Source: Mesostigma viride (Eukaryota > Streptophyta > Mesostigmatophyceae > Mesostigmatales > Mesostigmataceae). From it: a stretch of 64,000 bases of DNA. The stretch lies in NCBI GenBank assembly GCA_009746045.1, contig RPFO01000692.1, positions 529,640-593,639 of the forward strand, in the 5' to 3' direction. Both the position numbers and the translations under genes were made by a program. The notes beneath the pieces are model-generated. The model had not been told where the DNA came from and did not search any database. It saw only the letters and a program-made list of their open reading frames with translations. Of the stretch, positions 14,933-60,319 are shown piece by piece; position 1 is the stretch's first letter; each line of letters begins with the position of its first letter.

Positions 14933-24275
<9,343 letters not shown>

Positions 24276-33445: not shown

Positions 33446-33508
33446 TAATTCATTAGTTAATTAAACTCGTGCTCTGGATGGGGAGTCACGGAGTATTAAC
33501 CCCGATCT

Positions 33509-34192: not shown

Positions 34193-37100
34193 TTAAGATT
34201 GGAACAACACACTATGGGATGAGAGGGATCGAGTACACTGAGAGATAGAGGAGAGTATGAGCATAGGATAGGAGTACACTGAGAGATAGAGGAGAGTATG
34301 AGCATAGGATAGGAGTACACTGAGAGATAGAGGAGAGTATGAGCATAGGATAGGAGTACACTGAGAGATAGAGGAGAGTATGAGCATAGGATAGGAGTAC
34401 ACTGAGAGATAGAGGAGAGTATGAGCATAGGATAGGAGTACACTGAGAGATAGAGGAGAGGGTGAGCATAGGATAGGAGTACACTGAAGGACAGGACAAA
34501 ATGCAGTGCGGGTTAGGAAAGAGACACCTAGGATGCCCACATAGACAGCACGGGGAAAGCCCATGACTCATACTGGTACAGCATTGTGGCGGGAGAATGC
34601 CACGAAGACGAGAACGTGGAACGAGCACGTCTCCAGGCATCATTGGAGGGAAGCAAGGTGGAATATGTGCATGGTTCATTGATCATGTGACGGTCCATAG
34701 ATCACACAACTACAAGAGTGCTGAGGCCAATGGCATCAGAATTCGAATCGTGTGCACATGTTGTACATACGGCCAGCCGGATGAGCAGGCTGTGCCTAGG
34801 GACGTAACTCGCTCGATACCCGCATGCAGGGCGGTCACATTACTTCATACACACATGTAAGGGACAAACCGGGCTTGGAGAGCCGTGCAAGGAATAGGGC
34901 GAGAAGGATGGCGTAGACGCACCAGGCTGAAGAAGCCGTGCAAGGAATAGGACGAGAAGAATGGAGTGGACGCACCAGGCTGAAGAAGCCGTGCAAGGAA
35001 TAGGGCGAGAAGAATGGAGTGGACGCACCAGGCTGAAGAAGCCGTGCAAGGAATAGGACGAGAAGGATGGAGTGGACGCACCAGGCTGAAGAAGCCGTGC
35101 AAGGAATAGGACGAGAAGAATGGAGTGGACGCACCAGGCTGAAGAAGCCGTGCAAGGAATAGGACGAGAAGGATGGAGTGGACGCACCAGGCTGAAGAAG
35201 CCGTGCAAGGAATAGGACGAGAAGGATGGAGTGGACGCACCAGGCTAAAGAAGGGAGCCGTGCAAGGAATAGGGCGAGAAGGATGGAGTGGACGCACCAG
35301 GCTGAAGAAGCCGTGCAAGGAATAGGGCGAGAAGGATGGCGTGGACGCACCAGGCTGAAGAAGCCGTGCAAGGAATAGGGCGAGAAGGATGGAGTGGACG
35401 CACCAGGCTAAAGAAGGGAGCCGTGCAAGGAATAGGACGAGAAGGATGGAGTGGACGCACCAGGCTGAAGAAGCCGTGCAAGGAATAGGACGAGAAGGAT
35501 GGAGTGGACGCACCAGGCTGAAGAAGCCGTGCAAGGAATAGGACGAGAAGGAAGGAGTGGACGCACCAGGCTGAAGAAGCCGTGCAAGGAATAGGGCGAG
35601 AAGAATGGAGTGGACGCACCAGGCTGAAGAAGCCGTGCAAGGAATAGGGCGAGAAGGATGGAGTGGACGCACCAGGCTGAAGAAGCCGTGCAAGGAATAG
35701 GACGAGAAGAATGGAGTGGACGCACCAGGCTGAAGAAGCCGTGCAAGGAATAGGACGAGAAGGATGGAGTGGACGCACCAGGCTGAAGAAGCCGTGCAAG
35801 GAATAGGACGAGAAGAATGGAGTGGACGCACCAGGCTGAAGAAGGGAGCCGTGCAAGGAATAGGGCGAGAAGAATGGAGTGGATGCACCAGGCTGAAGAA
35901 GGAAGCCGTGCAAGGAATAGGACGAGAAGGATGGAGTGGACGCACCAGGCTGAAGAAGCCGTGCAAGGAATAGGACGAGAAGAATGGAGTGGACGCATCA
36001 GGCTGAAGAAGCCGTGCAAGGAATAGGGCGAGAAGGATGGAGTGGACGCACCAGGCTGAAGAAGCCGTGCAAGGAATAGGGCGAGAAGAATGGAGTGGAC
36101 GCATCAGGCTGAAGAAGCCGTGCAAGGAATAGGGCGAGAAGGATGGAGTGGACGCACCAGGCTGAAGAAGCCGTGCAAGGAATAGGACGAGAAGGATGGA
36201 GTGGACGCACCAGGCTGAAGAAGGGAGCCGTGCAAGGAATAGGGCGAGAAGGATGGAGTGGACGCACCAGGCTGAAGAAGGGAGCCGTGCAAGGAATAGG
36301 ACGAGAAGGATGGAGTGGACGCACCAGGCTGAAGAAGCCGTGCAAGGAATAGGACGAGAAGGATGGAGTGGACGCACCAGGCTGAAGAAGGGAGCCGTGC
36401 AAGGAATAGGACGAGAAGGATGGAGCGGACGCACCAGGCTGAAGAAGCCGTGCAAGGAATAGGGCGAGAAGAATGGAGTGGACGCACCAGGCTAAAGAAG
36501 CCGTGCAAGGAATAGGACGAGAAGGATGGAGTGGACGCACCAGGCTGAAGAAGCCGTGAAAGGAATAGGACGAGAAGAATGGAGTGGACGCATCAGGCTG
36601 AAGAAGCCGTGCAAGGAATAGGGCGAGAAGGATGGAGTGGACGCACCAGGCTGAAGAAGCCGTGCAAGGAATAGGACGAGAAGGATGGAGTGGACGCACC
36701 AGGCTGAAGAAGGGAGCCGTGCAAGGAATAGGGCGAGAAGGATGGCGTAGACGGACCAGGCTGAAGAAGGGAGCCGTGCAAGGAATAGGACGAGAAGGAT
36801 GGCGTGGACGCACCAGGCTGAAGAAGCCGTGCAAGGAATAGGACGAGAAGAATGGAGTGGACGCATCAGGCTGAAGAAGCCGTGCAAGGAATAGGACGAG
36901 AAGGATGGAGTGGACGCACCAGGCTAAAGAAGGGAGCCGTGCAAGGAATAGGACGAGAAGGAAGGAGTGGACGCACCAGGCTGAAGAAGCCGTGCAAGGA
37001 ATAGGGCGAGAAGGATGGAGTGGACGCACCAGGCTGAAGAAGCCGTGCAAGGAATAGGACGAGAAGGATGGAGTGGACGCACCAGGCTAAAGAAGGGAGC

Positions 37101-40100
37101 CGTGCAAGGAATAGGACGAGAAGGATGGAGTGGACGCATCAGGCTGAAGAAGCCGTGCAAGGAATAGGGCGAGAAGGAAGGAGTGGACGCATCAGGCTGA
37201 AGAAGCCGTGCAAGGAATAGGGCGAGAAGGATGGAGTGGACGCACCAGGCTGAAGAAGCCGTGCAAGGAATAGGACGAGAAGGAAGGAGTGGACGCACCA
37301 GGCTGAAGAAGCCGTGCAAGGAATAGGACGAGAAGGATGGAGTGGACGCACCAGGCTGAAGAAGGGAGCCGTGCAAGGAATAGGACGAGAAGGATGGAGT
37401 GGACGCACCAGGCTGAAGAAGCCGTGCAAGGAATAGGACGAGAAGGATGGAGTGGACGCACCAGGCTAAAGAAGGGAGCCGTGCAAGGAATAGGACGAGA
37501 AGGATGGAGTGGACGCACCAGGCTGAAGAAGCCGTGCAAGGAATAGGACGAGTAGGATGGAGTGGACGCACCAGGCTGAAGAAGCCGTGCAAGGAATAGG
37601 ACGAGAAGGATGGAGTGGACGCACCAGGCTGAAGAAGCCGTGCAAGGAATAGGACGAGAAGGATGGAGTGGACGCACCAGGCTAAAGAAGCCGTGCAAGG
37701 AATAGGACGAGAAGGATGGAGTGGACGCACCAGGCTGAAGAAGGGAGCCGTGCAAGGAATAGGACGAGAAGGATGGAGTGGACGCACCAGGCTAAAGAAG
37801 CCGTGCAAGAACTGGAGCTCCCTCTTGCTGGCGTTGGCGCGCAGAAGCAGCCGCCGCATCTGGGGCACAAAACGGTCGCTAAATGTGTCGTCACCCGCGT
37901 TACCGCCAGCAATTCTGGCGCCTCCCTGTCTAGCAGGATCTTTACCGCCGCCCGTTTTGACACCGCCACTTTCACTGCCAGCACGATGGCTGGTTGCGCC
38001 CATGTCGTTTCTGCTTCCAACCGCGGCATCCACCGTACCAGCAGCCCGCTGGTACCCCCTGCCCTCAAACTCCTCTGGCGGCACATCACCACCAACGGTG
38101 TCCACACCACTAGCGTCTGCAACAGGGCCAAGGCGGCCAGGGCCGGCTTGAGCACGTGACGCCGCAGGTGTTGTGCCAGACGGGTTGCCTGCCGGGGGGC
38201 TGCCTGATGACGGCGTGCTAGGCCTCCCTGGCGTTGCTGTGCCTGCAGCGCTGCTGGCATCATTACCCGCCCACTGGATGAGGTCAGCAGAGGCGCTGAC
38301 GAGCTGGTCCCATCGCCGGATGACGGCGTCCACCTCAGCAAGTGTGGCTGAGCCTGCAAGGGGGTGGGGTGGACAAATCCGTGAGGCGAATAGGCACGCC
38401 CATAACTATTACTGCAGGGGGGTGGGGTGGTCACATCTGTGAGGGGAGTAGGCACGCCCATTACTAGGACTGCAGGGGGGTGGGGTGGGCACATCCGTGA
38501 GGGGAATAGGCACGCCCATTACAACGCACACTCGGCCTTCTTAAATATTGGCATGGCCTTCTTAAATATTGGCATGGCCTTCTTAAATATCGACTTCCAC
38601 ACCACACAAATAACAATTTATCACCCAAAAACCAATGGCTATCTATAGATCCTTGTTATATAGATTCATGGCTATCTATAGATCCTTGTTATAAAGATCC
38701 ATGGCTATCTATAGACCCTTGTCATATAGATCCATGGCTATCGTGCACAGGCGCACATGCCCACATGGAGGTGAGCCCAAGTGACATGTGTGCACCAGGG
38801 TGCACGGTGGGACAAGGCAAACAGAAGAAGCCGTGGCTCTTTTGCCCACCTGTACGACACAGCCAAAAATTAAGTCGTGTTTCAGAAACCCACCTGAAGG
38901 ACAAAGCAAAAAATTAACCAAATTGAGTTTCACGTGCCTACCTGGAAGGGACCGGTACGCCGCAGAGCGCGGGTGAGGGGCCATGGACCCTGGCAAGGCG
39001 GGCGCATTAGTGGGTCGCCCCACCTCATCCGCGTCCTCTGGCAGTGTCGCTCTGGCACCGTTGGCAGTGCTGATGGAGTCATGCGTGGTGGATAATTGCC
39101 GCAATGGCGGTGGCGGTGGTGGTGGCGGGGGGGACGCCACCCCTTCGTAGAGGCGAGACAGCGCGACGGCGCACGCCTGGCTCAGATCTGCCAAAGGGAG
39201 GGAGCCAGGGGCAATGCAGGGCAGGCTGGTGGATTCAAAAAATGGTTGGGCAGGCCAGCAGGCCAGCAGGCCAGCAGGCCAGCAGGCCAGCAGGCCAGCA
39301 GGCCAGCAGGCCAGCAGGCCAGCAGGCCAGCAGGCCAGCAGGCCAGCAGGCCAGCAGGCCAGCAGGCCAGCAGGCCAGCAGGCCAGCAGGCCAGCAGGCC
39401 AGCAGGCCAGCAGGCCAGCAGGCCAGCAGGCCAGCAGGCCAGCAGGCCAGCAGGCCAGCAGGCCAGCAGGCCAGCAGGCCAGCAGGCCAGCAGGCCAGCA
39501 GGCCAGCAGGCCAGCAGGCCAGCAGGCCAGCAGGCCAGCAGGCCAGCAGGCCAGCAGGCCAGCAGGCCAGCAGGCCAGCAGGCCAGCAGGCAGGTAGGCG
39601 GGCGGGCAGGTAGGCGGGCGGGCGGGCAGGCAAGCCGGCCAGCAGGCAGGTAGGCGGGCGGGCGGGCAGGCAAGCCGGCGGATCCGAAGGTGGGCAGGCG
39701 GGTGGGTAGGCCGGCAGTGTGGTGAGCACACGGGCAGGTGGCACTTCGCAGGGCCATCGCTCACGGCCTTTATCTCCCTTTCCGTCCAAGTGCTGGTATC
39801 ACCATTTATGGGCGCAACGGATCAGGTGAGGGAGCGTGACCCGCCCAGCCCAGCCGTGTGCGATAATCCTACTGCCTATAAGCATGCGATAGTCCACTAT
39901 GTAACAGCCATCAGTCAACTACATTACAGTAACCGGTCAACTGTGTGATAGCAATCGGTCAACCATGTTATAGCAATCGGTCAACCATGTTATAGCAATC
40001 GGTCAACCATGTTATAGCAATCGGTCAACCATGTTATAGCAATCGGTCAACCATGTTATAGCAATCGGTCAACCATGTTATAGCAATCGGTCAACCATGT

Positions 40101-43100
40101 TATAGCAATCGGTCAACCATATTATAGCAATCGGTCAACCATGTTATAGCAATCGGTCAACCATGTTCTAGCAATCGGTCAACCATGTTATAGCAATCGG
40201 TCAACCATGTTATAGCAATCGGTCAACCATGTTATAGCAATCGGTCAACCATGTTATAGCAATTGGTCAACCATGTTATAGCAATCGGTCAACCATGTTA
40301 TAGCAATTGGTCAACCATGTTATAGCAATTGGCCAGCTATGTGATAGCAATCGGTCAACTTACTCAAGCTGGGCTGCCACCTGCCGGTCGCAAGCTCGCA
40401 CACGTGGCTGCACATGGCCAGCTCCTCGGTGAGTAGGCCGATATCCTCGCGTCCGAACACTAGCTGCGTGGGGGGAGGGGAGGGGGGGGACATTACGCTG
40501 GTCATGAGGAGATATGTAATCATACACTACAAGATATCATAGAGGGATAAGGGAAGGGGGGACATTACGCAGGTCATGAGGAGATATGTAATCATACACT
40601 TCTAGATATCATAGAGGGATAAGGGAAGGGGGGACATTACGCAGGTCTCGAGGAGATATGTAATCATACACTACAAGATATCATAGAGGGATAAGGGAAG
40701 GGGGGACATAAGGTACGCGAGGCACGGAGGTGCTGCATTACCCGTTGGGTTAATTGGTTGGAAGGCATGGATGTGCACGGTGGCGTGTTTATGTAATGAC
40801 CCCAGTCATGACTTCAAAAGGTTGCTGCACACCTGCACAGTGTGACTTAACCACTGCACACTGGCACGCACTTCACACTACAACATACATGCACCCACTG
40901 CGAGTAGATTGCGCATGGCACGGGTTAGCCTTGCTACGAACTACGGAAGTCACTGTACACTGTAGCCTATAGCCACCCATTGAAATCTAGTCCCTGTACA
41001 CTAAAGCACTCGATCACCCACCGCAAGCGTTTGTCGCTCTGCTGCGCCCAACAGCGATGCTCTTTCGCCCCCTTCCTCTCCTCGCCCCTCCTCTTGCCCT
41101 TCCCCACGACCCCCTCCTCGCCCCGCTCGTTCCCCTCCCCCCTCTTGCTCTGGCGTCCGCGCAAGCTCCGCCAGCTGACGCACGTGCAGCGAGGGGAGCC
41201 GCCGCTGACCCACGCGACGGCTGAAGCCGACCGCCTGCCAGGTGGCACAAGGGGGGTGGGAGAAGGGGGCAGGGCGAAGGGGGCGGTATGTGTATTGGGG
41301 GCGGATGGGAGGATTGTGCGCATATGACCTCCAACCATAGGGGGCATGCGTTAAGAATCTCATAATGGCCTCGTGTGCTTATAGTATCTTCCCTATCGTG
41401 CAACCATAGGGGGCATGCGTTAAGAATCTCATAATGGCCTCATGTGCTTATAGTATCTACCCTATAGTGCAACCATAGGGGGCATGCGGTAAGAATCTCA
41501 TAATGGCCTCGTGTGCTTATAGTATCTTCCCTATCGTGCAACCATAGGGGGCATGCGGTAAGAATCTCATAATGGCCTCGTGTGCTTATAGTATCTTCCC
41601 TATCGTGCAACCACAGGGGGCATGCGTTAAGAATCTCATAATGGCCTCATGTGCTTATAGTATCTTCCCTATCGTGCAACCACAGGGGGCATGCGTTAAG
41701 AATCTCATAATGGCCTCATGTGCTTATAGTATCTTCCCTATCGTGCAACCATAGGGGGCATGCGGTAAGAATCTCATAATGGCCTCGTGTGCTTATAGTA
41801 TCTTCCCTATTGTGCAACCATAGGGGGCATGCGTTAAGAATCTCATCATGGCCTCATGTGCTTATAGTATCTTCCCTATAGTGCAACCATAGGGGGCATG
41901 CGGTAAGAATCTCATCATGGCATCGTGTGCTTATAGTATCTTCCCTATCGTGCAACCATAGGGGGCATGCGTTAAGAATCTCATAATGGCCTCATGTGCT
42001 TATAGTATCTTCCCTATCGTGCAACCATAGGGGGCATGCGTTAAGAATCTCATAATGGCCTCGTGTGCTTATAGTATCTTCCCTATCGTGCAACCATAGG
42101 GGGCATGCGTTAAGAATCTCATCATGGCCTCATGTGCTTATAGTATCTTCCCATAGTGCAACCATAGGGGGCATGCGTTAAGAATCTCATAATGGCCTCA
42201 TGTGCTTATAGTATCTTCCCTATCGTGCAACCATAGGGGGCATGCGTTAAGAATCTCATAATGGCCTCATGTGCTTATAGTATCTTCCCTATCGTGCAAC
42301 CATAGGGGGCATGCGTTAAGAATCTCATAATGGCCTCATGTGCTTATAGTATCTTCCCTATCGTGCAACCATAGGGGGCATGCGTTAAGAATCTCATAAT
42401 GGCCTCATGTGCTTATAGTATCTTCCCTATCGTGCAACCATAGGGGGCATGCGTTAAGAATCTCATAATGGCCTCATGTGCTTATAGTATCTTCCCTATC
42501 GTGCAACCATAGGGGGCATGCGTTAAGAATCTCATAATGGCCTCATGTGCTTATAGTATCTTCCCTATCGTGCAACCATAGGGGGCATGCGTTAAGAATC
42601 TCATCATGGCCTCATGTGCTTATAGTATCTTCCCTATCGTGCAACCATAGGGGGCATGCGTTAAGAATCTCATAATGGCCTCGTGTGCTTATAGTATCTT
42701 CCCTATCGTGCAACCATAGGGGGCATGCGTTAAGAATCTCATAATGGCCTCGTGTGCTTATAGTATCTTCCCTATCGTGCAACCATAGGGGGCATGCGTT
42801 AAGAATCTCATAATGGCCTCATGTGCTTATAGTATCTTCCCCATAGTGCAACCATAGGGGGCATGCGGTAAGAATCTCATAATGGCCTCATGTGCTTATA
42901 GTATCTTCCCTATCGTGCAACCATAGGGGGCATGCGTTAAGAATCTCATAATGGCCTCATGTGCTTATAGTATCTTCCCTATCGTGCAACCATAGGGGGC
43001 ATGCGTTAAGAATCTCATAATGGCCTCGTGTGCTTATAGTATCTTCCCTATCGTGCAACCACAGGGGCATGCGTTAAGAATCTCATAATGGCCTCATGTG

Positions 43101-45667: not shown

Positions 45668-46225
45668 GTAAAGGTTGCGCTAGATATCTTGGTCAGCTCA
45701 TAAGGGAGCGTCAGTCTCTAAGTGGTCACGAGCAGCTGCAGCTATTCCGGCAAACATTTCACCTGTGAGCCGCTTTTTCCCTTCAATGCAACGAAACGTT
45801 CCACGACATTGCCCTAACAGCAGCTGCGTAGAAGCCACAATGCCGATCAGCTGCTACCGGTATTAGGAACCATCCTCATTCGCTTGACTTTGTGCCTTCG
45901 GAATGTGGCATCACTTCCACTGCTTCGTATAGAACACACTACGAAAGAACGACAAAGGAGGCAGTTATTGCCACGTGGCAGGATCGGGGAACGCAAATGA
46001 TAGCATTAGGTCTGTGTCGCGACAATTTGCAGGACCCCGGTACACGTGGAGCCTAGGGCAGCACTGAGCCACACAGATACGAGGCCCTGACCAGGACCTC
46101 GCAGTCGCATCTCCAATGTTGACACCAAATTACTACCTCGATGGTGTAGAAACGACGGCTTTGTCTGACCTTCTAATGGCTGTATGAAGTCGCCTTCGTG
46201 ATTCGGCTTCTCATACGTCGGCACC
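45668..46225. promoter_or_regulatory. Likely bidirectional promoter region
   Basis: About 560 bp separate the methyltransferase ATG (45,667, -) from the first candidate ATG of the transaminase (46,226, +). I see no clear TATA box. The call rests on divergent gene arrangement only. Confidence 0.35.
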
Positions 46226-46257
46226 ATGCATCGGGCGAGGTATTTCCTGGCAAACAG
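46226..46257 (+). CDS. Candidate first exon of the GABA transaminase (mitochondrial presequence start)
   Basis: ATG in a good context (ggcaccATG) encodes MHRARYFLAN, basic and without acidic residues, and ends at AG|GTTGGT in phase 2. A phase-compatible exon could begin at 47,528 after ctctaggcag (GRYSSGASADAVAAAAPSV), which also looks like a transit peptide. Neither links directly to the exon at 47,931, so one more exon would be missing. Low confidence. Confidence 0.3.
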
Positions 46258-46867
46258 GTTGGTAATTGCGTCGAATTATGACTTGCTTGCGACCGCGGGC
46301 CAGGTGCTCGAGCGTTTTGCGATCCTGATTATTAGCACCTTGTTCCCAGCGTCTTTATTGGAATCTCACGCTTATTGGATTGATCTCGTCACGCTTGGTG
46401 TTTATGGCAGGCTTTCTGCCGTGACTTCAGCCGTTTTAGACACTGCTCCGGCCGTCGGTTTCCTCTCGTGGCGGAGTTCAGCGGAAGTATCTGCGCCCCC
46501 TTGGTCGCCCACGCCAGCCTTTGAACGGCGTTTCTCATATCCTGCAGCTGAACCGTTATCGTGAGTTTTTGGTCAAACTATCTACCCGTGTATTCTATCT
46601 ATGCAGCAACCCAGTCGGCGTGGTACTTGCAGGCGGCAGTCTAGCCATGGTAGTCCCTGTCAGATCTGTTGAGATCGGCACACGACAGATGGCAAGCATC
46701 TTATCCGGTAGCGGTTAGGCGGCCTGTTATCCATGCAGAGGAGTCTGCACTGACGAAAGCTTTGGCAATTGCACAAGTATTCCTCGGCATGCTCCAGCGG
46801 GTATTGCAGCCCGCATACTTCCATGCACATAGGACAGAAAGCCAGGAAGGGCTGGATGCTACACAGT

Positions 46868-47160
46868 GACCATTATTGGGATTGCTATTCATGACCATTA
46901 TTGGGATTGCTACACAGTGACCATTATTGGGATTGCTATTCATGACCATTATTGGGATTGCTATTCATGACCATTATTGGGATTGCTATTCATGACCATT
47001 ATTGGGATTGCTACACAGTGACCATTATTGGGATTGCTATTCAGGACCATAATTGGGATTGCTACACAGTGACCATTATTGGGATTGCTATTCAGGACCA
47101 TAATTGGGATTGCTACACAGTGACCATGATTGGGATTGCTATTCAGGACCATAATTGGGA
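46868..47160. repeat. 25-27-bp array, about 11 copies
   Basis: Units of gaccattattgggattgct followed by attcat, acacagt or attcag; probably within a 5' intron of the transaminase gene. Confidence 0.9.
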
Positions 47161-47321
47161 CAAGGCGCACAGGCATAGAAGGCTGACTTGGTGTGGCTTG
47201 TTCTTTGTGACAGATGTTGTATGTGTTGGTTCGTGGTGGCTGTTGTTCCTATTGGTTCGTGATGGGTGGGCCAATGTGCATTCCGTCGAGAGGCCCGCAC
47301 TTGATGAGGCAACTCGCTTGT

Positions 47322-47386
47322 TCCGCATGCCTAGGGTGCATGCACTGCCTAGGGTGCATGCCTTGCCTAGGGTGCATGCCTTGACT
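47322..47386. repeat. 18-bp array, three to four copies
   Basis: Units of cctagggtgcatgcc in tandem. Confidence 0.8.
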
Positions 47387-47930
47387 GGGGCGCATCTGCA
47401 TGTAGCTGCTCGCTCCTCTCGCGACATGCCTTTATTGAGCACAACATGCCTCTATTGAACATCTTATTCACCAGCGCAAGGTTGCCCCGTGCGGCATGAG
47501 CGTGCCACCCCTGATGACTCTAGGCAGGGGACGGTATTCATCTGGGGCTTCCGCCGACGCTGTCGCTGCCGCTGCTCCTTCCGTGCTGCGTTTCAGATGT
47601 CAAAGCTGCCTGCATGCCTGCTATACTCCTCACTGCATGCCTGCTTCCTCGACGGTCTTTAGTTGTTGATACTGTCATCGGCACTCAGGCCATTGGCATT
47701 GTGACGGCCCATTTCCTGTGGATTCTAAGTGAGAGTTCTCTTCTTGGATGCCAAGTTGATGCGTGTCGCGTCCTTGTTCCTCTGGCGTGCCTGCTGGATG
47801 GTCCACGGACATGCGGTCATGCGTGGTTGTACGGCAATTTTTTTGCGACTGCTTTGTGGGTCTGCTGCGGCTGCGTCCGCTGCGTCTGCATCCACACCAG
47901 CGATGGCACACCCCAAGGTCCCCTCCCCAG

Positions 47931-49063
47931 CCTGCTGGCACCCTTCAGCAACCTCACGCTGGCCACCCGCAAGGAACCGCTCACCATCACGCGCGCCGAG
48001 GTAGGGGTTGTGGTAGGGGTTGTGGTAGGGGTTGTGGTAGGGGTTGTGGTAGGGGTTGTGGTAGGGGTTGTGGTAGGGGTTGTGGTAGGGGTTGTGGTAG
48101 GGGTTGTGGTAGGGGTTGTGGTAGGGGTTGTGGTAGGGGTTGTGGTAGGGGTTGTGGTAGGGGTTGTGGTAGGGGTTGTGGTAGGGGTTGTGGTAGGGGT
48201 TGTGGTAGGGGTTGTGGTAGGGGTTGTGGTAGGGGTTGTGGTAGGGGTTGTGGTAGGGGTTGTGGTAGGGGTTGTGGTAGGGGTTGTGGTAGGGGTTGTG
48301 GTAGGGGTTGTGGTAGGGGTTGTGGTAGGGGTTGTGGTAGGGGTTGTGGTAGGGATTGTGGTAGGGGTTGTGGTAGGGGTTGTGGTAGGGGTTGTGGTAG
48401 GGGTTGTGGTAGGGGTTGTGGTAGGGGTTGTGGTAGGGGTTGTGGTAGGGGTTGTGGTAGGGGTTGTGGTAGGGGTTGTGGTAGGGGTTGTGGTAGGGGT
48501 TGTGGTAGGGGTTGTGGTAGGGGTTGTGGTAGGGGTTGCCTGAGATGGGGGGAGGTTGGTGAGTAGAGGGATCGTTTTTGCGTGCACCGGCTGGAGCGGT
48601 CGCTTGTGGGGTTGGCGCCGCGGTGAAGCAGGCGCTCATGGTTGGGTGACGGGTAGGGTAGGGGCAGTGGTTGTGCGTGCAGGTAGGGGCATGGGTTGGA
48701 GCGGTCGCTTGTGTGGTTGGCGCCGCGGTGAAGCAGGCGCTGATGGTTGGGTGACGGGTAGGGTAGGGGCAGTGGTTGTGCGTGCAGGTAGGGGCATGGG
48801 ATGGAGCGGTCGCTTGTGTGGTTGGCGCTGCGGTGAAGTCGGCGCTGATGGTTGGGTGACGGGTAGGGTAGGGGCAGTGGTTGTGCGTGCAGGTAGGGGC
48901 ATGGGATGGAGCGGTCGCTTGTGTGGTTGGCGCTGCGGTGAAGTCGGCGCTGATGGTTGGGTGACGGGTAGGGTAGGGGCAGTGGTTGTGCGTGCAGGTA
49001 GGGGCAGTGGTTGGCTCTGTGCGTGGCTGCTTGCCGAGGTAGGGTACTGGGTAAAAGGTAATG

Positions 49064-49157
<94 letters not shown>

Positions 49158-52100
49158 TGTGTGTATGTGTGTGTGTGTGTTTGTTTGGTTTCATGCTTGC
49201 GTGCAACGTCTTTTCCTTGCAATGCCATGCTTGGCCTCCTTGCTCATGATGTATGTGCATGGCCCATTCTGTACGCCCACTGCCGTGCGCAAATAAGTAT
49301 TTGGAGCTGTAATTGGAAGATTAAATTGTAGTTGTGGACTATTCTTCACCTGCAACAAGGGGCGTGGCGCGGTCGCACGTATGACATACTACGTACGTAT
49401 GAGAGCGTACGTAGTCGCTTCTCACGCTGCCACGCCCCGGCACACACGTGTGCCCTTGTGCCATGTGCCCATGTGCCATGGTACCTGCTGCAGGGCGTCT
49501 ACGTGTATGACAAGCACGGCAACAAATATCTGGATGGCCTGGCCGGACTCTGGTGCAACGCGCTCGGTGGGTTGTCACGCATGTCCCCACACACGATCGC
49601 GCGCGCAAGGGAGGTCATCTTAGGGGGTCAAGAGTACCTGGATGTTCGTATCCTGCCTGTGCTACCATAGGTATAATCGCAGCGCTCTGGACTCTTGTGC
49701 AACATGCTGAGTTGGTGGTCGCAGTGTTTAGATAGGAATATTGGATATGAGCCCGTGATGTGTGTATGATATTCGCCCTCACAAAGTGCTTTCCATGCTT
49801 TCTTTATCGAGCATGTTTGCAGTTTGTCTGAACTGATTTGCCCTTGCACAGGCTGGTCCTCGGGCTCACTCACCTATGCACTTCATTCATGCAAGGGATG
49901 GACCTCCTCCTGTCATTGGTTGTGCACCTGCCTGATGCTGTCATCATCATCATCGCCTCCTACCAAACATCGCTACCTACCAGCCACCTTCATCATTATG
50001 AAGAGTACCTAATACCTGCCAGTCGCCCCCACCCCGACCCTAACCCTTACCCGCCAGGTGGCAGCTGCCAGCGGCTACGGGACGCCGCCGTTCGCCAAAT
50101 GGATGCCCTCCCGTTCTACCCGTCGTTTTGGAACCGGACGACCGACACCACGCTGGTGGGTTATGTTTGGGATAGTAGTATAGTAGTATAGTAGTATAGT
50201 AGTTTAGTCGTAGAGTAGTAGAGTAGTTTAGTAGTAGAGTAGTATAGTAGTAGAGTAGTAGAGTAGTAGAGTAGTAGAGTACAGTAGTACAGTAGTGTAG
50301 TAGTATAGTAGTATAGTAGTATAGTGGTATAGTAGTACAGTAGTAGAGTAGTAGAGTAGTAGAGTAGTAGAGTAGTAGAGTAGTAGAGTAGTAGAGTAGT
50401 AGAGTAGTAGAGTAGTAGAGTAGTAGAGTAGTAGAGTAGTAGAGCAGTAGCGTAGTAGACTAGTAGGCTAGTAGACTAGTAGAGTAGTAGAGTAGTAGAG
50501 TAGTAGAGCTGTAGAGTAGTATAGTAGTAATGATGAGATATTGAGCTTACAGAGGCAGGGTGACCGACACCACGCGGGTGGGTGGTGTTAGACATGTTGC
50601 TGTGAGGACACCATGATGTGCATGAGCGTGTTGACACCGCCGCCTCGCTGGTAGGCTCCAGCTGGTTTGTTATCGCTCAAAGTAGTTGAAGGAGGAAGCC
50701 TGTTTTGTATTTGATGTATATGACATCTGGAGAAGGCGCTGGTGCTTGCCGGCTGGTTGTTTCTTAATCCATTTAGTGATTGTTCATTGAGGGATTCTGT
50801 GGGTGTATATACTTTTTGTCGACTACTGCGTTTTTTTGATACTTTTAGTCGGTTACAGTACCATCTTAAAGTTGCGGGCACCGCCTGGTTGCGATCCCAT
50901 GTCGCTGCTTGGATGGGATATCTTGGATGGTAAAACCTTATCTAGGTTGGATGGGAAATCTTGGATGGTAAAACCTTATCTAGGTTGGATGGGAAATCTT
51001 CGATGGTAAAACCTTATCTAGGTTGGATGGGAAATCTCGGATGGTAAAACCTTATCTAGGTTGGATGGGAAATCTCGGATGGTAAAACCTTATCTAGGTT
51101 GGATGGGAAATCTCGGATGGTAAAACCTTATCTAGGTTGGATGGGATATCTTGGATGGTAAAACCTTATCTAGGTTGGATGGGAAATCTCGGATGGTAAA
51201 ACCTTATCTAGGTTGGATGGGAAATCTCGGATGGTGAAACCTTATCTAGGTTGGATGGGAAATCTCGGATGGTAAAACCTTATCTAGGTTGGATGGGATA
51301 TCTTGGATGGTAAAACCTTATCTAGGTTGGATGGGATATCTCGGATGGTAAAACCTTATCTAGGTTGGATGGGAAATCTCGGATGGTAAAACCTTATCTA
51401 GGTTGGATGGGATGTCTCGGATGGTAAAACCTTATCTAGGTTGGATGGGATATCTCGGATGGTAAAACCTTATCTAGGTTGGATGGGAAATCTCGGATGG
51501 TAAAACCTTATCTAGGTTGGATGGGAAGTCTCGGATGGTAAAACCTTATCTAGGTTGGATGGGAAATCTCGGATGGTAAAACCTTATCCAGGGTGGATTG
51601 GTTTTTACTTTCTAGCTCACTTGTCCATATCCTGTGCTGGCGCGTTTTGCCATGGCTGTGGGCAGTGATGTGTACTCCTGCCTGGACTTAAACGGGCAAG
51701 GATTTTGCCTGGCGTTTGGTGAAGGCGTTTCTGCGTGGGCCCAGTGATCAAAGCATCGAGGTCCAGCTGCTCCGCAGTCTCCACAAGTTTTGTGGATGCG
51801 CGCGCCATGGGATGCGCGCGGGCTCATCCTGTGCAAGGGATGTGGTGCCTTTGGGTTCAGCTGTTGTTTGAGGCGCACAGGGCGTGCCGCGTGCCCGCAC
51901 TATGCAGTGCCCGCGTGCCGGATGAACGAATCATAGCGTTGCCCCTGTGTTCTGTGAGGTACCCGAATACAGTCAATTGTTACTTTCTGTTTCTCTTACG
52001 TTTGTTTCAACTTTTTGTGTTCCGTTTCCCCCCTTTGCGTGGCCATGCGCGCGGCGTGCGCAGGCACTAGCGGACGAGCTTCTTGCTTCCTTTCGGCCTG

Positions 52101-55100
52101 TCGTGGAGAACGGGCAGGTCTTCTTCACGAGCGGGGGATCGGACGCCAATGACAGCATCGTGCGTGGCTGCTGGTGGTTGCATAGAGGATGGTATAGGGT
52201 ATCATCATGGTGCGATAGACGATACAATAAGGAATCTTCACAAGTGGTGGATCGGACGCCAACGACAGCATCGTGGGTGGTTGTTAGAAAAATAAATATT
52301 GAAATACTTGACCCCATACACAGCATCGTGCGTTACTGCTGATGTGATAAATAATGCGACCTTAAGGAATCATATGACCCATCCAGAACGGGCATGTCTT
52401 CTTCACCTGCGGCGGGTAACACACCAAACACGGCATTCCACCCTGATTATTAGAAATAATCACAACTCAATTAGACATAGATTGACGCACTAGGCGTCAC
52501 TATAAGAAACAGCACCGCCGTTTCTAATATGGTCACGCACGCATAGCTGCTGCTTTCATAATTGCTGAGCTGTGAAGACGATGTACGATGTGAGGCATTT
52601 GATCTGTAACGGCACAGGCAGCTGGCGGCTCCTTCCGCTGTTTTCTTCCGTTCTCCCGTTCCCCGCTCCCTGCTCCCCGCTCCACCCCTCCCTTTGAGGC
52701 CGCACGTCGATAAGGGGGGAATGTTTGCACGCGAATATGCTCCCTCTTACCGACTAGTGCCATTAGTGTGTATTTGCTTGAAATACCTATATTGTTATAT
52801 TATATTTGTTTGAGTCACCTATCCATACAACCCCCCCTACGGTTTACTCCTTGCTTCCACCTTCCTACGCCACTTACCATATCATGTTGTTTTTCCGTTG
52901 TTGTCTTTATTGTCGTGTATTTGGCTTTGTTTGACGCCACAGTATCTTGGTGTGCTGGCTGTTGCCGTGGGATGCCTTTGTGTTGGTCGTTTGCAGGTGA
53001 AGCTCGTGTGGTACTACCACAACGCCATCGGCCTACCCAGGAAGAAGAAGATCATTGTGCGCGACCGCGCGTACGTGACGTAGGGGCTAGCGTGATAGTA
53101 TAACACATATGATAGTGCATGGGGTAGTGCATGAGGTAGTGCAAAGGGTAATGCATGGCTAGCGCGACACCGCGCCGCATACCATCATGTTCTTTTCTTG
53201 TGCGACCGCGCGGATGTGACCGCGCCAGCTTTAGGGGTTGATGTGATGCTATGATTACGAAACTATGCAATAACGCACGGGGTGGTGTGCACGTATGCGG
53301 GAGCTCATATGCGTGTGGCAGCGCCAGCGTTATGGGGTGACTGTATGCGGGAGTGTGTGCTTATGCGATATGGACGTTAGGACACCAAAATAATACTAGC
53401 CGCAGGACACTATAGTGGCATACGATTGTTAGCGTGCAGGACACTATAGTGATAATATTCGGCGTTGGACACTAAAATAGCATGCAATTGTTAGTGTGGG
53501 GACGTAGTGTGGGGTGGGGTGCATGCGCGCAGGGGGGCGCATACGTGCTGCATGTACAGTTTTTATTTCTACGTGCCGCTGCATGATGGGGTGGTGGGGC
53601 ATACATTGACAGCTGGTGTCTGCATGCAGTATCGAATTGTATGGCTAATGGTATAGCTACCTGTTGTCTATCTGTGATACGTCAAGCATGCAAGGTCCTT
53701 GTACCCCGGTGTTCCATTTCGTGCTGTTTATCTGTAGCCTACGTCAACGTGTGCTTGTCCCAGGGATAACTGGATGGCATCTCGGTGATATGCTGGGGCG
53801 CAGGAGGGGTGAACCAGGAAGGCCTAGGCGGACCTACTTCTCGAGTAGCTAGCCTAAAGGCAAGCCATGCCAGACATTCCCGACCCCACGGTACCTTGAC
53901 AGGTTGTCATCCAGCTGCGTCGGGTGATGGTTCTTCTTTCTGTCTTGCAAGGCCCATGCTGACGTGTGGCCAATCGCCACAATCGGTCGCATCCCTGCCA
54001 TTAACAGTTGCCTGCAAGTAACATTTGCCCCCAATCAACGATTGCCTGCGACCAAAAACTGCCTGCTTTTGTCTGCTCCTCTTGTCTGTGTCCCTCCGGC
54101 ACTTGCCCTCGGCGCAGCTATCACGGCTCGAGCGTCCTCTCCGGCAGCCTTACTGGGTAAGCGCGATACGGGTGGGGAGGCAAGAAAAACGGGCATGGTG
54201 GCCTCCTGCTGTGTCGGCGTGCCCCTAAGAACTGCACATGACAACCTGTTTTTGGGTAGCGGGCAACCGTCTGGATGCACAAGTTTTTGTGCCAGGATAG
54301 CCCAACCAACTTGACCATGTTGTGTTGAAAAGGCTTGCGTCATCCCAGTGCTTTGCAAGGCAATTCCCTATTTAGGAATGGGGTTGGCTTTCAATGATGT
54401 TGTCCGAAACTCGATACCGTTTCTGGATTTGACGCCGCCGTAGTATTTAACGCTGTTTTTTCTTTACCCTGGTGAGCCTTTGACTCAGCCGACTCATCAG
54501 AGGGGGAAGGGTTGCGAGCTATTGGAGGGCTTGGCTGTCATGCAATCATTTGCGTGTCATGATTTGCATCCTTGCCCGCCTGTGTGCCATATTGCTTGCA
54601 TTCTGCACCCCCCTTTCCCTCACAGGCTGGCGCTGCTCCACAGCGGCTTTGATGCGCCCGTGACCGGCCTCATCTTGCGCACGAGCAGCCCCCACTACAA
54701 GCGGCATGCGCGGCCAGGTGGGGATGAGACAGCGGCTACCCAAGTGCGAGGTGGGGATAAGACAGCGGCTATTCTTGGTGCACTAAAGGCCATGCGTCTG
54801 CCCGTATGTTTGCAAGCCGCAGGGCCCCTACCAGCGCTTGCACATCCATGTGGGGAAGGTGCCTGTGCGGGCCGCTCATCGTTCCTCGGCTCTTGCTGCA
54901 CCTCTCTGGTGTGCCATGGGGCATGTGTGCGCAGGCGAGAGCGAGGAAGACTTTTCCACACGGATGGCGGACGAGCTGGATGCGCTGATACAGAGGGAAG
55001 GGGCAGACACGGTGGGTGCGCCAGTATACGTTTGGAATGGCCAGAGGGAAGGCGCGGACTCGGTGGATGCGCCCGTGTACGTTTGGAATGAGCATGCGTC

Positions 55101-58100
55101 TGTTTGGTGATGCAGAGTGAAGGGGCGCACTGCGTGGGTTCGCGAGTGTGGGAGGTGAGAGGGGAATGGCAGATGGCGTCCGTGCGCGCATGTTTCATGG
55201 GCAAGACGCGGCCTGCATCAGCTCTAGCTCCGCTGGGACTATGGAACCCCGCTTCTCTATTTGCGGGCATGTTTGACTTTGGGCCTTTGAAGGTTGTTCT
55301 CACAGCAAGCACCCGCGCTGACGCAGTGGTGGGGGATGCCATCGGTTGCCCTCACGGGGTTGGCTGCCACCCCTTGCGGTGCGCTCATGGTGGCTGCCAC
55401 CCCTTGCCCTCATCGTGTGAGGGTTGCCACCACTTGCACCACCCGCATGGTGTGCAATCACTTGATTATCTCGATCATCTGCTTGCACTTGCGTCCGCAG
55501 ATTGCTGCGTTTTTCGCGGAGCCTGTTCAAGGGGCGGGCGGCGTCATCCCGCCCCCCAAGACGTACTTCCCCAAAGTAAGCACTCTGTCCTCGTGTATTT
55601 TGTGGACGTAGTTATGGTGAATGAAAGCCATAACAAGTAAGCACCTGTGCTCCGGTATCAAAGTTGTTAACGAGTTACATGACATTAGGCCAGCAGGCTC
55701 CGCTCTCTTTTCTGTTGGTGCACCAAGGGCGAAAGCTGGGGAAATTCGTGTTGGATCTTTCACCATGGGAAGAAGCACACGCATGTAACCAAGGGACGGC
55801 AAGAGTAAGTTCCGGGAGATGATGTTTGTGGGGTGGGTACTCCATGTTGGGGAAGTCATGTGGAATTTCGGGCTTTGGAAAATAAGGAAAGCGCCTCAAG
55901 GCAATGACGTTTCTCGCAACAAATAAGTAATTATTGTTTTTCTAGGAAGGGCGGCGTCTGCTTGTTGTTCATACTGTGCTCTGGCGCCCCGTGCACCGTC
56001 ATGACAGCCCTGGTGAAATTGGTATAGGTGGGCTTCCCCAACGTGGGAAGCATGTCATTCTTTTTGCATCCTTCTTTTGAGTTTCGTTGATTTCAAGACA
56101 AGGCATTTTTTGTGGCCCATCAATCACATGCAGAAGCAAATGGTTTTACCATGAATTTCTCTGCCTGCACTGGCTGCCTTCTCCCCCCAACCCCCTCCAC
56201 TCACCTCCTCCACTCACCCCCTCCACGCCCCCCCTCCACTCACCCCCTCCACTCACCCCCTCCACTCACCCCCTCCACTCACCCCCTCCACTCACCCCCT
56301 CCACTCACCCCCTCCACTAACCCCCTCCACTCACCCCCTCCACTCACCCCCTCCTCTCACCCCCTCCACCCACCCCTCCTCTCACCCCCTCCACCACCAC
56401 CCTCCACTCACCCCTCCACTCACCCCTCCACCACCACCCTCCACTCACCCCCTCCACCCACCCCCTCCACTCACCCCCTCCACTCACCCCCTCCACCCAC
56501 CCCCTCCACTCACCCCCTCCACCCCCCCTCCACCCACACCCTCCACTCACCCCCCTCCACTCACCCCCTCCACTCACCCCCTCCACCCACCCCCTCCACC
56601 CCCCCCTCCACTCACCCCCTCCACCCACCCCCTCCACCCACCCCCTCCACTCACCCCCTCCACCCCCCCCTCCACTCACCCCTCCACTCACCCCTCCACC
56701 ACCACCCTCCACTCACCCCCTCCACTCACCTCCTCCACTCACCCCCTCCACGCCCCCCTCCACTCACCTCCTCCACTCACCCCCTCCACTCACCCCCTCC
56801 ACCCACCCCCTCCACTCACCCCCTCCACCCACCCCCTCCACTAACCCCCTCCACTCACCCCCTCCACACCCCCTCCACTCACCCCCTCCACCCACCCCCT
56901 CCACTCACCCCCTCCACTCACCCCTCCACTCACCCCCTCCACTCACCCCTCCACCACCACCCTCCACTCACCCCCTCCACCCACCCCCTCCACTCACCCC
57001 CTCCACTCACCCCTTCCACCCACCCCCTCCTCTCACCCCCTCCACCACCCTCCTCCACCCACACCCTCCAATCACCCCCCTCCACTCACCCCCTCCACTC
57101 ACCCTCTCCACCCACCCCCTCCACCACCCCCCTCCATCACCCCCTCCACCCACCCCCTCCACTCACCCCCTCCACCACCCCCCTCCACCCACCCCCTCCA
57201 CTCACCCCCTCCACTCACCCCCTCCACTCACCCCCTCCACTCACCCCCTACACCCACCCTCGTCACCCACACCCGCCACCAACCCTATACGCCTACTACC
57301 CCCCTCCACCTGACCCTTGCGCTGTCGGCCGCAGATCCAGCAAGTGCTCAAGAAGCACGACATCCTGTTCGTGGCGGACGAGGTATGCGACGTGTCTATT
57401 TTTAGCACTCTGCGTTCGGCTGCCGCCGTGGCCTCATTGGGACCCTGGGCATCGCCTTTGCGGGTTGCGAGAGCACCCAGGCATTTGCAAGGGGTCGGCT
57501 TCAACAGCTCTAGGCCGCCGCTGTTCACAGCGCAGTGTTATGCGTGCAATGGAGCGTGTGACGATGCCGTAGTCACATCGTTATACTACACCAGCATGTG
57601 TCCTGACACATATGAATAGGTGCCTGGGTGAATCCTCCAGCAGTTCCGAGAAAGACTGTTTTCAGCGTGGTCATTGTCAATCCCTCGTCAGTAATCCTGT
57701 CAACTGCAGTAGTTATCCTGTCGACTACAACAGTACTCCTGTCGACTACTGAAAACGGCACGTACAGGGAGTGGGACTATTTCTGCCTTGTCCTGCATTC
57801 ATGCACACTTACTAATGACATGCACTGGGATATGCGCTCATGCATGCAGAATTTTCACAATTCAACCCCCTCTTGAAGCCGTAGCGCGTCAGTGGGTATG
57901 TGCTGTCATAATCGATTGGAATGCTTGCTTTCATGTCCGTGCATGCTGTCGCGTTGTACTCTGCGAGCTAGCGCGTCTGACTTCATGCAGATACCCTTGG
58001 GGCTTCTGTGTTCAGTATAAAGACTCCAAAAGAAAATAAGAAGAAAAGAGACTCCAAAAGAAAACGAAAAGAGACTCCCAAAACCACAAAAAGAAAGTGG

Positions 58101-59993
58101 CGTGCGCTGCTCGCTGACTGGTCGCCACGTAGCTGCCACCGCGACACGGGGTTCATGTGCCGCCACCTGTCCCTCCCGCAGGTCGTCTCCGCGTTTGGCC
58201 GACTGGGCACCATGCTTGGCTCCCAAAAATTTGACATCAAGCCCGACTTTATCACGATCGCAAAGGTGAGGACGCATCGCGGTGGGTGAGGACGCATCGC
58301 GGTGGGTGGGTGAGGGCGCATCGCGGTGGGTGAGGACGCATCGCGGTGGGTGAGGGCGCATCGCGGTGGGTGAGGACGCATCGCGGTGGGTGAGGGCGCA
58401 TCGCGGTGGGTGAGGACGCATCGCGGTGGGTGAGGGCGCATCGCGGTGGGTGAGGTGAGCACAGCCTCACAGGGAAGTACTGGGTCTGTATTCTTTACTT
58501 CAGCAGTTTGCACAGGTGAGCAATGCTTCAGGAAGTGAGGAGAGGGACCCTTTGCAACTACACTGTGACCCTCTTAAAGCTGTGGGTTTGAGGTAGGTGA
58601 CCGTTTTCTTTAAAAGGGGCCAATCTGGATTTCACCTTAACGGCACGTCGTCAGGGTGGACAAGATGAGAATGTCACTGCTATGCGTACAGCCATGGCAA
58701 GTTGCCGATATGCGTACAGCCATGGCAAGTTGCCGAGGGGAGGAAAGTCGGGGAACCGTCGGCAGCACGCTGACATGTGGGAGCGGGGGGGGGATATCAC
58801 GCTCGTAGTCCTGCCTGCCGCTGTCCGGCTTGTGTGGGCATGGTAGGTGCAGGGATGCTGGGCACGTAATTTGGTGCACTGGCTTTTGAGCCCTTCGCAC
58901 TCCCTTGCGATTGACAACCCTTTCCTCGGTTGGTATCCATTCCTTGTTCGCTGCCTAGGTTGGCGCCCTCCTTTCTCGCTCCCCTTCAACATACTTGCCG
59001 CCTTAGCCACCCGCTCTGCCCCACCGTTGTCTTCCCCACCACTCCCTGCCCCACCCTCCCTGCCCACCCCCCTGCCAGGCCATCACCTCGGGCTACATCC
59101 CGCTGGGCGCCGCCATCATCAACAACGAACGCGTGGCGCGCGCCATCACCAACATGTCGGACAAAATGGGCGGTGGGTTAAGGGAGATTAGACAAGGTGG
59201 GAGGTGGGTGGATTAAATAGGCAAGTTGGGGGGTGGGTTGAGCAGGTTGGGGGGTGGGTTGAGCAGATAGCTAAGGTTGACGGTGGATGGGCGCACTGCG
59301 ACATGATCCCTCTGTCGTGCCAGTGCAAGGTAACATGTGTTTTGTCAAAGGCCTTCTTTATCCCAGCATCTGTCAACTGAGCAATGTTCTCAAAAGTGGA
59401 GGAGTTTTTTCCTCTGCCCAATCATTTTGTTATCAGGACTGTTGTCTCCTTCATTTTGTTATCAGGGCTGGGACCCGAGGATGACAATGACGTTGCAGAG
59501 ACCTCCCTTGACTTTGGTGAATCTGGACATGGGACTGGAGTTTTTTGACTTGTGTGAAATAATGAGAACTTTCATTAGCTGGGAAGCTCTTTACCCAGAA
59601 GGTTACCCAGTCACCTCGTTCAGCCAGTTGGCAGGGCAGAAGTAGAAAAGGGCAGCTACGCCTTGGGGCTTGGCTGTGAGCATGTTTCCAGCGACCTCGT
59701 GAGATTTGTAGTTTTTTAAGGACATGGGTATATATGTATATGTACTAGCTTGCATGTATTCCCCCAAGGGAACACAGGGATCATGGTTTGGGATATCTAT
59801 GCGGCCTGGATTCTGTCCAAAGCCTATACCACTCATCTTACTTCTTCCCTCTAAAGCGCTCATCTCACTCCTTCCCTCCGTTCTGCTTGTCCTGGCCCTG
59901 ACCGCACCCTGCAGGTTCCTTTGGCCACGGCTTCACATACACAGGGCACCCGGTGGCGTGCGCGGTCGCGAGGGAAGCGCTCTCGATCTACCG
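47931..59993 (+). CDS. Gamma-aminobutyrate transaminase, plant pyruvate-dependent type (class III aminotransferase), 13 exons, C-terminus not found
   Basis: Exons: 47,931-48,000; 49,494-49,566; 50,058-50,155; 52,064-52,159; 52,997-53,070; 54,118-54,156; 54,626-54,717; 54,935-55,011; 55,501-55,575; 57,335-57,382; 58,182-58,265; 59,079-59,172; 59,915-59,993. Every join is GT-AG and phase-consistent, giving 333 residues. Order of motifs: [42 protein letters not shown], the cofactor-phosphate loop [63 protein letters not shown] (Asp to the pyridine nitrogen), [14 protein letters not shown] (Schiff-base Lys, last codon of the 84-nt exon) and [17 protein letters not shown]. Family role: PLP-dependent transfer of the GABA amino group to pyruvate or glyoxylate, usually mitochondrial. 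All cofactor residues are present. About 100 C-terminal residues are not seen by 64,000. Related class III enzymes are possible, but similarity to plant GABA-T is strongest. Confidence 0.92.
48001..48538 (+). repeat. 12-bp minisatellite (GTAGGGGTTGTG), about 45 copies, beginning at the 5' splice site
   Basis: The first base of the array is the first base of the intron after exon 47,931-48,000 (GCCGAG|GTAGGG). Every unit therefore repeats the donor-like GTAGGG. It is nearly perfect (one gtagggattgtg variant near 48,351). Confidence 0.95.
48591..49013 (+). repeat. 105-bp array, four copies
   Basis: Units start ggagcggtcgcttgtg and include gttgggtgacgggtaggg and gtgcgtgcaggtaggggca; they follow the 12-bp array in the same intron. 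Confidence 0.9.
49066..49153 (+). repeat. (GA)n dinucleotide tract
   Basis: About 43 perfect ga units followed by a short (gt)n run to 49,180. Confidence 0.97.
50172..50532 (+). repeat. GTAGTATA/GTAGAGTA-type array in intron 3
   Basis: Starts 17 bases after the donor at 50,156 and continues for about 360 bp with 8-9-bp units (gtagagta, gtatagta). Confidence 0.9.
50912..51595 (+). repeat. 38-bp minisatellite, about 18 copies
   Basis: Unit holds ttggatgggaaatctcgga and tggtaaaaccttatctagg; sits in the middle of intron 3. Confidence 0.95.
52228..52420 (+). repeat. Duplicated pieces of the 52,064-52,159 exon in its downstream intron
   Basis: 52,233-52,271 repeats the last 36 or so bases of the exon and is followed by GTGGGT. 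52,320-52,334 repeats cagcatcgtgcgt. 52,386-52,415 repeats the earlier part (gaacgggca.gtcttcttcac). See findings. Confidence 0.85.
53188..53345 (+). repeat. Copies of the 52,997-53,070 exon end and donor
   Basis: cttgtgcgaccgcgcggatg at 53,197 echoes attgtgcgcgaccgcgcgta at the true junction. The intron sequence that follows (taggggctagcgtgatag) is echoed as taggggttgatgtgatg and again near 53,320. Confidence 0.75.
56183..57258 (+). repeat. 12-bp pyrimidine-rich array (CCCCTCCACTCA), about 90 copies
   Basis: Fills intron 9 up to about 75 bases before the acceptor at 57,334, so the + strand RNA would have a polypyrimidine stretch of about 1 kb. Long Pro/Ser/Thr/His frames here are repeat artefacts. 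Confidence 0.95.
58266..58457 (+). repeat. 20-bp array starting at the donor after exon 58,182-58,265
   Basis: Unit gtgaggacgcatcgcggtgg, about nine copies (one is 24 bp); the first base is the first intron base. The end of each unit (gcatcgcggtg|ggtgag) resembles the exon end gatcgcaaag|gtgag. Confidence 0.9.
59173..59270 (+). repeat. Donor-derived gggtgggtt repeats after exon 59,079-59,172
   Basis: The true junction gggcg|gtgggttaaggg is followed by two clear copies of ggggtgggttgagcag and by looser ones (gggaggtgggtggatt). Confidence 0.75.
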
Positions 59994-60312
59994 GTAGGGC
60001 AGGGGGGGAGGGGTCGCGATCTACCGGTGTGTGTGTGGGGGGGGGGGAAGGGTCGCCATCTACCTGTCGGGGGGAGAGGAAGCACCTCGCAGTCTACCGG
60101 TAGCGGGGGGGGGGGAGGGTTGCAGTATACCGGTAGGGCGGGAGGGAAGCGCTCGCGATCTACCGGTAGGGGGGGGGGGAAGGGTCGCAGTCTACCGGTA
60201 GGGGAGGGAAGCGCTTGTGATCTACCGGTGGGGGGGGGGGAAGGTTTGCAGTCTACTGGAAGGGGGGGTGGAGGCGCGCGATCTACCGGAAGGGGGGGGG
60301 GGAAGGGTCGCC
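59980..60312 (+). repeat. Array of about nine copies of the exon 59,915-59,993 end and donor
   Basis: The junction gatctaccg|gtaggg is repeated with variations (gatctaccggtgtg, catctacctgtcgg, agtctaccggtagc, agtataccggtagg, gatctaccggtagg, agtctactggaagg) separated by long G runs. Most units keep a GT after ccg. Confidence 0.88.
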
Positions 60313-60319
60313 ATTCACA

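Follow-up and report, generated by a model that had tools for sequence, protein, structure and literature searches.

Duplications at splice sites are known from several organisms and form the background to the sequences described here, copies of exon-intron junctions that lie inside the introns of two neighboring genes in a window of 64,000 nucleotides of nuclear DNA from the streptophyte alga Mesostigma viride. Passages of PMC4974935 and PMC3443670 describe intron gain by tandem duplication in ATP2A1, in fission-yeast genes, and in the potato RdRp gene; there, as in Mesostigma, the duplication takes place at splice sites and the extra DNA is hidden by splicing. A human interferon-induced minisatellite with multiple splice donors, cited in PMC2572611 (NAR 1995;23:1854), likewise consists of a short tandem unit with a donor. 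The human MSH6 variant c.3936_4001+8dup, according to sections of PMC9818763, is a 74-bp tandem duplication over the exon 9 donor; in carriers, a normal transcript from the duplicated allele was not found, and a downstream donor was used or the exon was skipped. This is the same type of mutation as in Mesostigma, where an exon end and its donor are duplicated in tandem. Finally, introner elements of Micromonas and others, in the account given in a passage of PMC3443670 (see also PMC9860276), represent recurrent repeated DNA in algal introns, as is the case here.

Mesostigma is an early-branching streptophyte with an assembly of 440 Mb, in which the window covers positions 529640-593639 of contig C2089. 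Its genome paper (PMC6947507), in its sections on introns and repeats, puts introns at 1141.9 bp on average and assigns 30.1% of intron space to repeats. Those sections on introns and on tandem or repetitive DNA do not describe junction copies, and splicing is unmentioned in the main text.

Donor and acceptor copies in 67 introns

We compared the two ends of introns in a pool of 67 introns from 24 genes, comprising the introns of the two window genes, which encode a transaminase and an RNA methyltransferase, and 45 introns of chaperonin and kinesin genes that lie in other parts of the genome. A copy of the final 24 bases of the exon was found in the downstream intron in 23 of 66 cases, compared with 1/66 for a reverse-complement control and 0.6% for a control with exon ends taken from other introns. 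At the acceptor, the opening 24 bases of the following exon were recopied in just 4 of 65 cases (Fisher P = 5.9e-5 against the donor side), and a matching AG was kept, by eye, in one of these four echoes. The difference was also seen outside the window alone (donor, 16/45; acceptor, 4/45; P = 0.0045), and it persisted at score thresholds from 20 to 30, with the two counts going from 26/66 versus 5/65 down to 12/66 versus 1/65. By gene, donor copies outnumbered acceptor copies in 12 genes and the reverse occurred in none, with 12 ties. This asymmetry is the main regularity in the data, and it is absent from the earlier note on this DNA, a reading of the sequence alone. What that note did propose, namely that copies of an exon end with its donor recur, holds well beyond the window: such copies are present, in direct orientation, in 15 of the 24 genes tested. 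Neither this prevalence nor the asymmetry was met in our searches of the open-access literature, subscription papers lying outside them.

Copying fades into the exon. Exon-interior windows were copied in 2 of 161 cases, and the copy rate fell through 35, 14, 8, 5, and 3% at positions −24 to −72 (9/65, 5/64, 3/63, and 2/63 at −36, −48, −60, and −72), as expected from units of tens of bases. The best exon-end echo lay within the first half of the intron in all 23 cases, with a median distance of 97 bases to the donor. Among 37 junction-spanning echoes in 22 introns, the GT was intact in 34, in agreement with the claim of the earlier note that many decoy donors are left behind.

We consider it likely that these patterns reflect a general habit of duplication that is filtered by splicing, and not a process directed at splice sites. 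Short tandem duplications would arise often throughout the noncoding DNA of Mesostigma viride, and selection would then sort them according to their splicing outcome. A duplication over a donor would leave the exon intact if the 5′-most donor stayed in use, the new copy of exon end and donor becoming plain intron; repeated rounds would line up decoys toward the 5′ end and make the intron longer. A duplication over an acceptor would be removed, because use of the upstream acceptor would add exon sequence to the mRNA. The asymmetry between donor and acceptor follows if splicing favors the donor attached to the true exon. The decoys would accordingly be ignored in RNA, selection would make the asymmetry, and an exon-anchored or first-come choice of donor would be its cause.

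Local duplication is indeed frequent away from donors. Tandem arrays with a score of at least 80 numbered 55 and were found in 35 of the 67 introns, 41 of the 55 having units of 11 to 83 bp. Of the 24-mers from intron interiors, 854 of 2351 have local copies in direct orientation, a rate close to that at donors, and 30 of 2351 in reverse orientation. Six stretches outside known exons also contain local copies, at rates of 7.5 to 36%, where the 36% stretch may belong to the last transaminase intron. Since both interiors and stretches outside known exons are duplicated, duplication extends beyond donors and beyond introns. More tentatively, and as a bet that we would not quite take at even odds, Mesostigma may follow a strict exon-tethered first-donor rule, in which the donor of the real exon beats dozens of near-identical downstream donors and position and exon context, not donor sequence, decide. 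The asymmetry would then be a trace, left by evolution, of the reading direction of splice sites, and introns would be able to grow from their 5′ ends.

The exons outside the window were located by profile searches of the whole genome, with at least 58 chaperonin and at least 129 kinesin matches, from which 37 stretches were taken. GT-AG junctions were inferred from reading frame, profile continuity, and splice-site score, and an exon pair was accepted if it was unambiguous, scored at least 5, and differed in length by no more than 2 residues. For chaperonin, 57 of the at least 58 matches were used (one single-exon gene was omitted) and 24 of 31 neighboring exon pairs were accepted; exclusion of the C1641 twin and of C777:7427, a GTGC microsatellite, left 22 introns. 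For kinesin, 60 of the at least 129 matches were used, a selection from genes with neighboring exons, and 26 of 40 pairs were accepted, which became 23 introns after removal of three C622 twins. Searches for aldehyde dehydrogenase (12 matches) and tRNA synthetase (28 matches) gave few neighboring exons and were left out of the pool. In a chaperonin-eta gene, all six inferred junctions, five of which are in the pool, align gap-free to two moss orthologues. The near-identical gene pairs on different contigs, C1641/C887 and C2/C622, are probably haplotype copies. C2 and C622 differ by two single-base indels across about 3.9 kb, while C1641 and C887 are about 2% apart in a comparison of 2.9 kb; the longest indel between them, one instance only, is a near-tandem copy of 18 bp. 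A chaperonin intron in the latter pair measures 4087 bp in one and 912 bp in the other, with no array at the donor.

Junction copies in the transaminase and methyltransferase genes

Both window genes are exact matches to annotated Mesostigma proteins at their own positions. The GABA (gamma-aminobutyric acid)/omega-amino-acid transaminase gene (PF00202) occupies 46226..59993 on the plus strand. Its joined exons are 100% identical to protein Mv21582-RA.2 (P0001) across the 343 amino acids searched, and exact spliced mapping places residues 1 to 404 of 478 on 15 exons, which end at 46257, 46560, 48000, 49566, 50155, 52159, 53070, 54156, 54717, 55011, 55575, 57382, 58265, 59172, and 59993. Because the tail of the protein falls outside the window, the donor at 59993 was set by the GT rule without a following exon; the last exons were not located within 20 kb downstream of the window, where 7500 of the first 10000 bases are N. 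A search with P0001 revealed no recent paralogue, its 14 matches comprising 12 to the gene itself and 2 to distant relatives. The 11 exon ends named in the earlier note are consistent with these models, in which two upstream exons missing from that note (46226-46257 and 46411-46560) also appear; no copy is found in the intron after either. The SpoU/TrmH-type RNA methyltransferase gene (PF00588) lies on the minus strand at 33361..45667, and its eight joined exons (45667-45394, 44644-44625, 44244-44116, 41234-41022, 40463-40364, 39187-38942, 38353-37788, and 33396-33361) give all 528 amino acids of Mv21581-RA.1 (P0121). The second of these is a microexon of 20 nucleotides, and an isoform, P0122, lacks it and uses another frame over the next exons.

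For each junction, a segment of up to −60..+40 was aligned against the intron that follows it, with 100 shuffles for comparison, transaminase intron 15 being used only as far as the window end. In the transaminase gene, a junction copy scored above the maximum of all shuffles in 10 of 15 introns. The earlier note had reported copies in 11 transaminase flanks; ten of these stand, while the intron after 59172 is marginal, a G-rich echo of junction −6..+39 at 59248..59290 passing the 95% level only (score 40 versus a shuffle maximum of 47). Transaminase introns 1, 2, 8, and 12 and methyltransferase intron 1 fell below the 95% level. In the methyltransferase gene, a copy exceeded all shuffles in five of seven introns (2, 3, 5, 6, and 7), and the score for intron 4 equaled the shuffle maximum. 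A stricter test of 24 exon bases (score ≥21, equaled by no more than one of the 21 other exon ends), combined with a donor test (0/200 shuffles), recovered exon-end copies in 8 of the 22 window introns, donor-flank copies in 8, and one or the other in 13. None of 20 window introns carries a copy of the 24 bases with which the next exon opens.

The copies range from 12-bp arrays at the donor to a 51-bp duplication, single echoes of 63 to 89% identity, and 54 copies of a 53-bp unit. In the transaminase gene, a 12-bp array, GTAGGGGTTGTG, with 44.9 copies begins at the donor after exon end 48000 (48000..48538), and a 20-bp array with 9.4 copies begins at the donor after 58265 (58265..58455). The array at 59984..60332, with a unit of 33/62 bp, begins within the exon ending at 59993 and copies junction −30..+35. 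A 51-bp tandem duplication crosses exon end 55011 (54991..55090) and is followed by a further echo at 55108-55176. The diverged echo of exon end 49566 (junction −22..+18; 49689..49727) has 76% identity and a score of 37 versus a shuffle maximum of 28, and that of exon end 50155 (−16..+12; 50562..50589) has 89% identity and lies 3′ of an 8-bp array at 50174-50529. Exon end 52159 is echoed at 52235-52283 (−38..+11, 88%), 52310-52356 (−18..+32, 74%), and 52385-52436 (−53..−1, 77%), with a fourth, weaker echo at 52933-52974 (70%). The echo of exon end 53070 (−13..+31; 53199..53252) is 63% identical, including one 10-base gap, and scores 34 versus a maximum of 28. After 54717, the stretch 54751..54856 contains a donor-flank copy (donor 24-mer score of 37, 0/200 shuffles) and a weak exon-end echo at 54819-54856 (34 versus 30). 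Junction alignment places an echo of exon end 55575 (−2..+39) at 55635..55677. The copies after 48000, 55575, and 58265 include just 1 or 2 exon bases.

In methyltransferase introns 2 and 5, the copied sequence is entirely intronic. Past the microexon (exon end 44625), positions +13..+40 of the intron are copied at 44527..44553 (score of 38 versus 33), and a 22-bp array with 21.3 copies (39892..40359) begins 4 nucleotides past the exon 5 donor. The end of exon 3 and its donor (exon end 44116) have three diverged echoes, at 44050-43976, 43906-43874, and 43815-43784, and exon 6 (exon end 38942) has one of junction −8..+40 at 38858..38900 (69% identity, 33 versus 31). On the acceptor side, a 58-bp array with 2.9 copies (38354..38522) ends at the exon 7 acceptor, but it copies intron sequence only and no exon sequence. 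The largest array, at 34881..37809, contains 54.2 copies of a 53-bp unit that carries the last ~22 nucleotides of exon 7 and the donor GTGCGT; together with the 44.9 copies after 48000, it accords with the array sizes of about 50 given earlier. Donor sites lie within the tandem units of the arrays at 48000, 58265, 59984, and 34881-37809. After exon 7, one aligned copy matches the real junction at every base between −22 and +40, and the two annotated isoforms both keep to the first donor, which shows the strength of the preference needed at this exon. The exon 7 frame (36927-38405, minus strand) runs stop-free for a long way through the 53-bp array, whose other frames also stay open over long distances. 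Farther along intron 7, an (ATGG)n array at 33509-33797 changes into (TTGG)n.

Elsewhere in the window, a MULE transposase domain and a SWIM zinc finger were identified with Pfam in two adjoining open frames on the plus strand, 19927-21819 and 22620-24272, which probably form one MULE-type element. An exon of a PDDEXK_6 family gene (PF04720) lies at 12423-13154 on the minus strand. A 363-bp unit is present as a tandem duplicate with 97% identity at 19001-19696, and it far exceeds most units found at splice junctions.

Origin of the copies

Several points weigh against a general duplication habit filtered by splicing. Copies of sequence near the 3′ end of the intron persist in 16 of 66 introns at −36, 10 of 66 at −24, and 7 of 66 at −12; the barrier at the acceptor is graded up to the exon start. 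None of the six stretches outside known exons exceeds the 36% average of introns, and some may hold unannotated genes. That the first donor is used is deduced from the annotated proteins and from the conservation of protein length. Echo-bearing introns exceed the others in length, in keeping with the intron lengthening claimed in the earlier note (medians of 922 and 661 bp, P = 0.014; the echo-bearing group includes transaminase intron 15, truncated at the window end), but longer introns also give more room for matches. Introns of one gene are not independent, and junctions outside the window rest on profile hits, with C777:5118, C557:10368, and C1424:2279 as doubtful ones that were kept. Furthermore, windows straddling the junction were copied somewhat more often (28/67) than intron interiors from +24 on (16 to 22 of 65 to 67; paired P = 0.019), and of the 37 arrays inside the window, 7 begin between −30 and +20 relative to a donor.

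These last two observations are also what would be expected if some feature of the boundary, such as an R-loop, a G-rich donor, or stalled transcription, made duplications start there more often. Such donor-directed duplication seemed likely inside the window, and in the kinesin set with its twins, the exon-end window was copied in 12 of 26 cases compared with 3 to 4 of 26 at +24..+60. Across the 67 introns, it was not confirmed. When the best row of each array was taken, nine arrays started near a donor versus 6.1 expected from uniform placement (P = 0.14); this count misses the array at 59984 because only best rows were used, and merging of overlapping rows gave 10 versus 6.1 (P = 0.07). Outside the window, three arrays were near donors versus 3.3 expected. 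The proposal in the earlier note of a process acting at splice sites is therefore not supported: its own check, an enrichment of intronic arrays at donors, showed no clear excess. Moreover, the junction excess can be explained by slower decay of those copies whose partner is conserved exon, although mild donor targeting would look alike. In the 37 echoes, mean identity is 88% in the exon part (−20..−4), 89% in the donor core, and 78% in the intron part (+7..+18), values to be read with the caution that echoes were selected for spanning the junction, which favors a well-kept center. The ratio of divergence between intron part (22%) and exon part (12%), about 1.8, is near the value of about 2 predicted if the exon copy is constrained while all other copies drift freely. 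We therefore regard donor-directed duplication as unlikely.

The same identities bear on whether the decoys are functional, serving as reserve donors, in alternative splicing, or as steps in recursive splicing. The intact GT in 34 of 37 echoes and the well-kept donor core would fit such a role. The exon part of the same copies is conserved alike, however, so that extra constraint on the donor is unneeded, and the idea is unsupported, as the core is kept no better than the exon part. Decoy spacing modulo 3 is 6:8:8 (22 introns, a slightly different set from that used for decay), which shows no frame preference; frame-preserving use of decoys is therefore not the reason for their tolerance. Both annotated methyltransferase isoforms also stay with the first exon 7 donor. 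A function for the decoys is accordingly quite improbable.

Still less probable is that the copies are remnants of intron birth, in which introns arise from a tandem-duplicated exon segment (the AGGT model). That introns can be gained by tandem duplication is accepted, as stated in passages of PMC3443670 and PMC4974935, and the earlier note mentions this route for other eukaryotes. We rejected it for these introns: the two signatures of the AGGT model, an upstream exon end copied to the intron 3′ end and similarity between the first bases of the intron and those of the next exon, were each found in 0 of 66 introns, and the 23 best echoes are all confined to the 5′ half. An artefact of assembly or chance, with low complexity and the donor consensus mimicking copies, can be dismissed with near certainty, for although the region is rich in simple repeats and adjoins a stretch of N, the cross-intron control gave about 0.2 to 2% and the reverse-strand control 0 to 5% (donor side), and the copies, 0 to over 30% diverged, are found in 15 of 24 genes, spread over many contigs.

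Comparison with known systems

Engineered constructs are the usual means of studying how one of several equal donors is chosen. Mesostigma provides many natural ones, with up to 54 near-identical junctions in series and an outcome that is legible from protein conservation. The copies also suggest a simple route for intron lengthening, and the comparison of donor copies with acceptor copies provides a sequence test that could reveal the orientation of splice-site choice in any genome.

In contrast to intron gain by tandem duplication, the introns of Mesostigma already exist and appear to lengthen at their 5′ ends, with gain signatures in 0 of 66. In the potato RdRp case, as presented in a section of PMC4974935, the duplication crosses an acceptor, whereas the Mesostigma copies are mostly on the donor side. 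Unlike introner elements, these copies derive from the junction of their own intron and are unshared between introns (0.2 to 2% across introns, for the windows near junctions that were compared). The human interferon-induced minisatellite is reportedly that of 6-16/IFI6. It concerns one gene, and the title of its description states that multiple donors are provided; in Mesostigma, many genes are involved and the decoys appear to be unused. The MSH6 duplication, as reported in the sections cited above, includes just 8 intron bases and destroyed normal splicing in humans, so that tolerance in the alga is unexpected: in Mesostigma, duplications of this type are common and the protein is intact.

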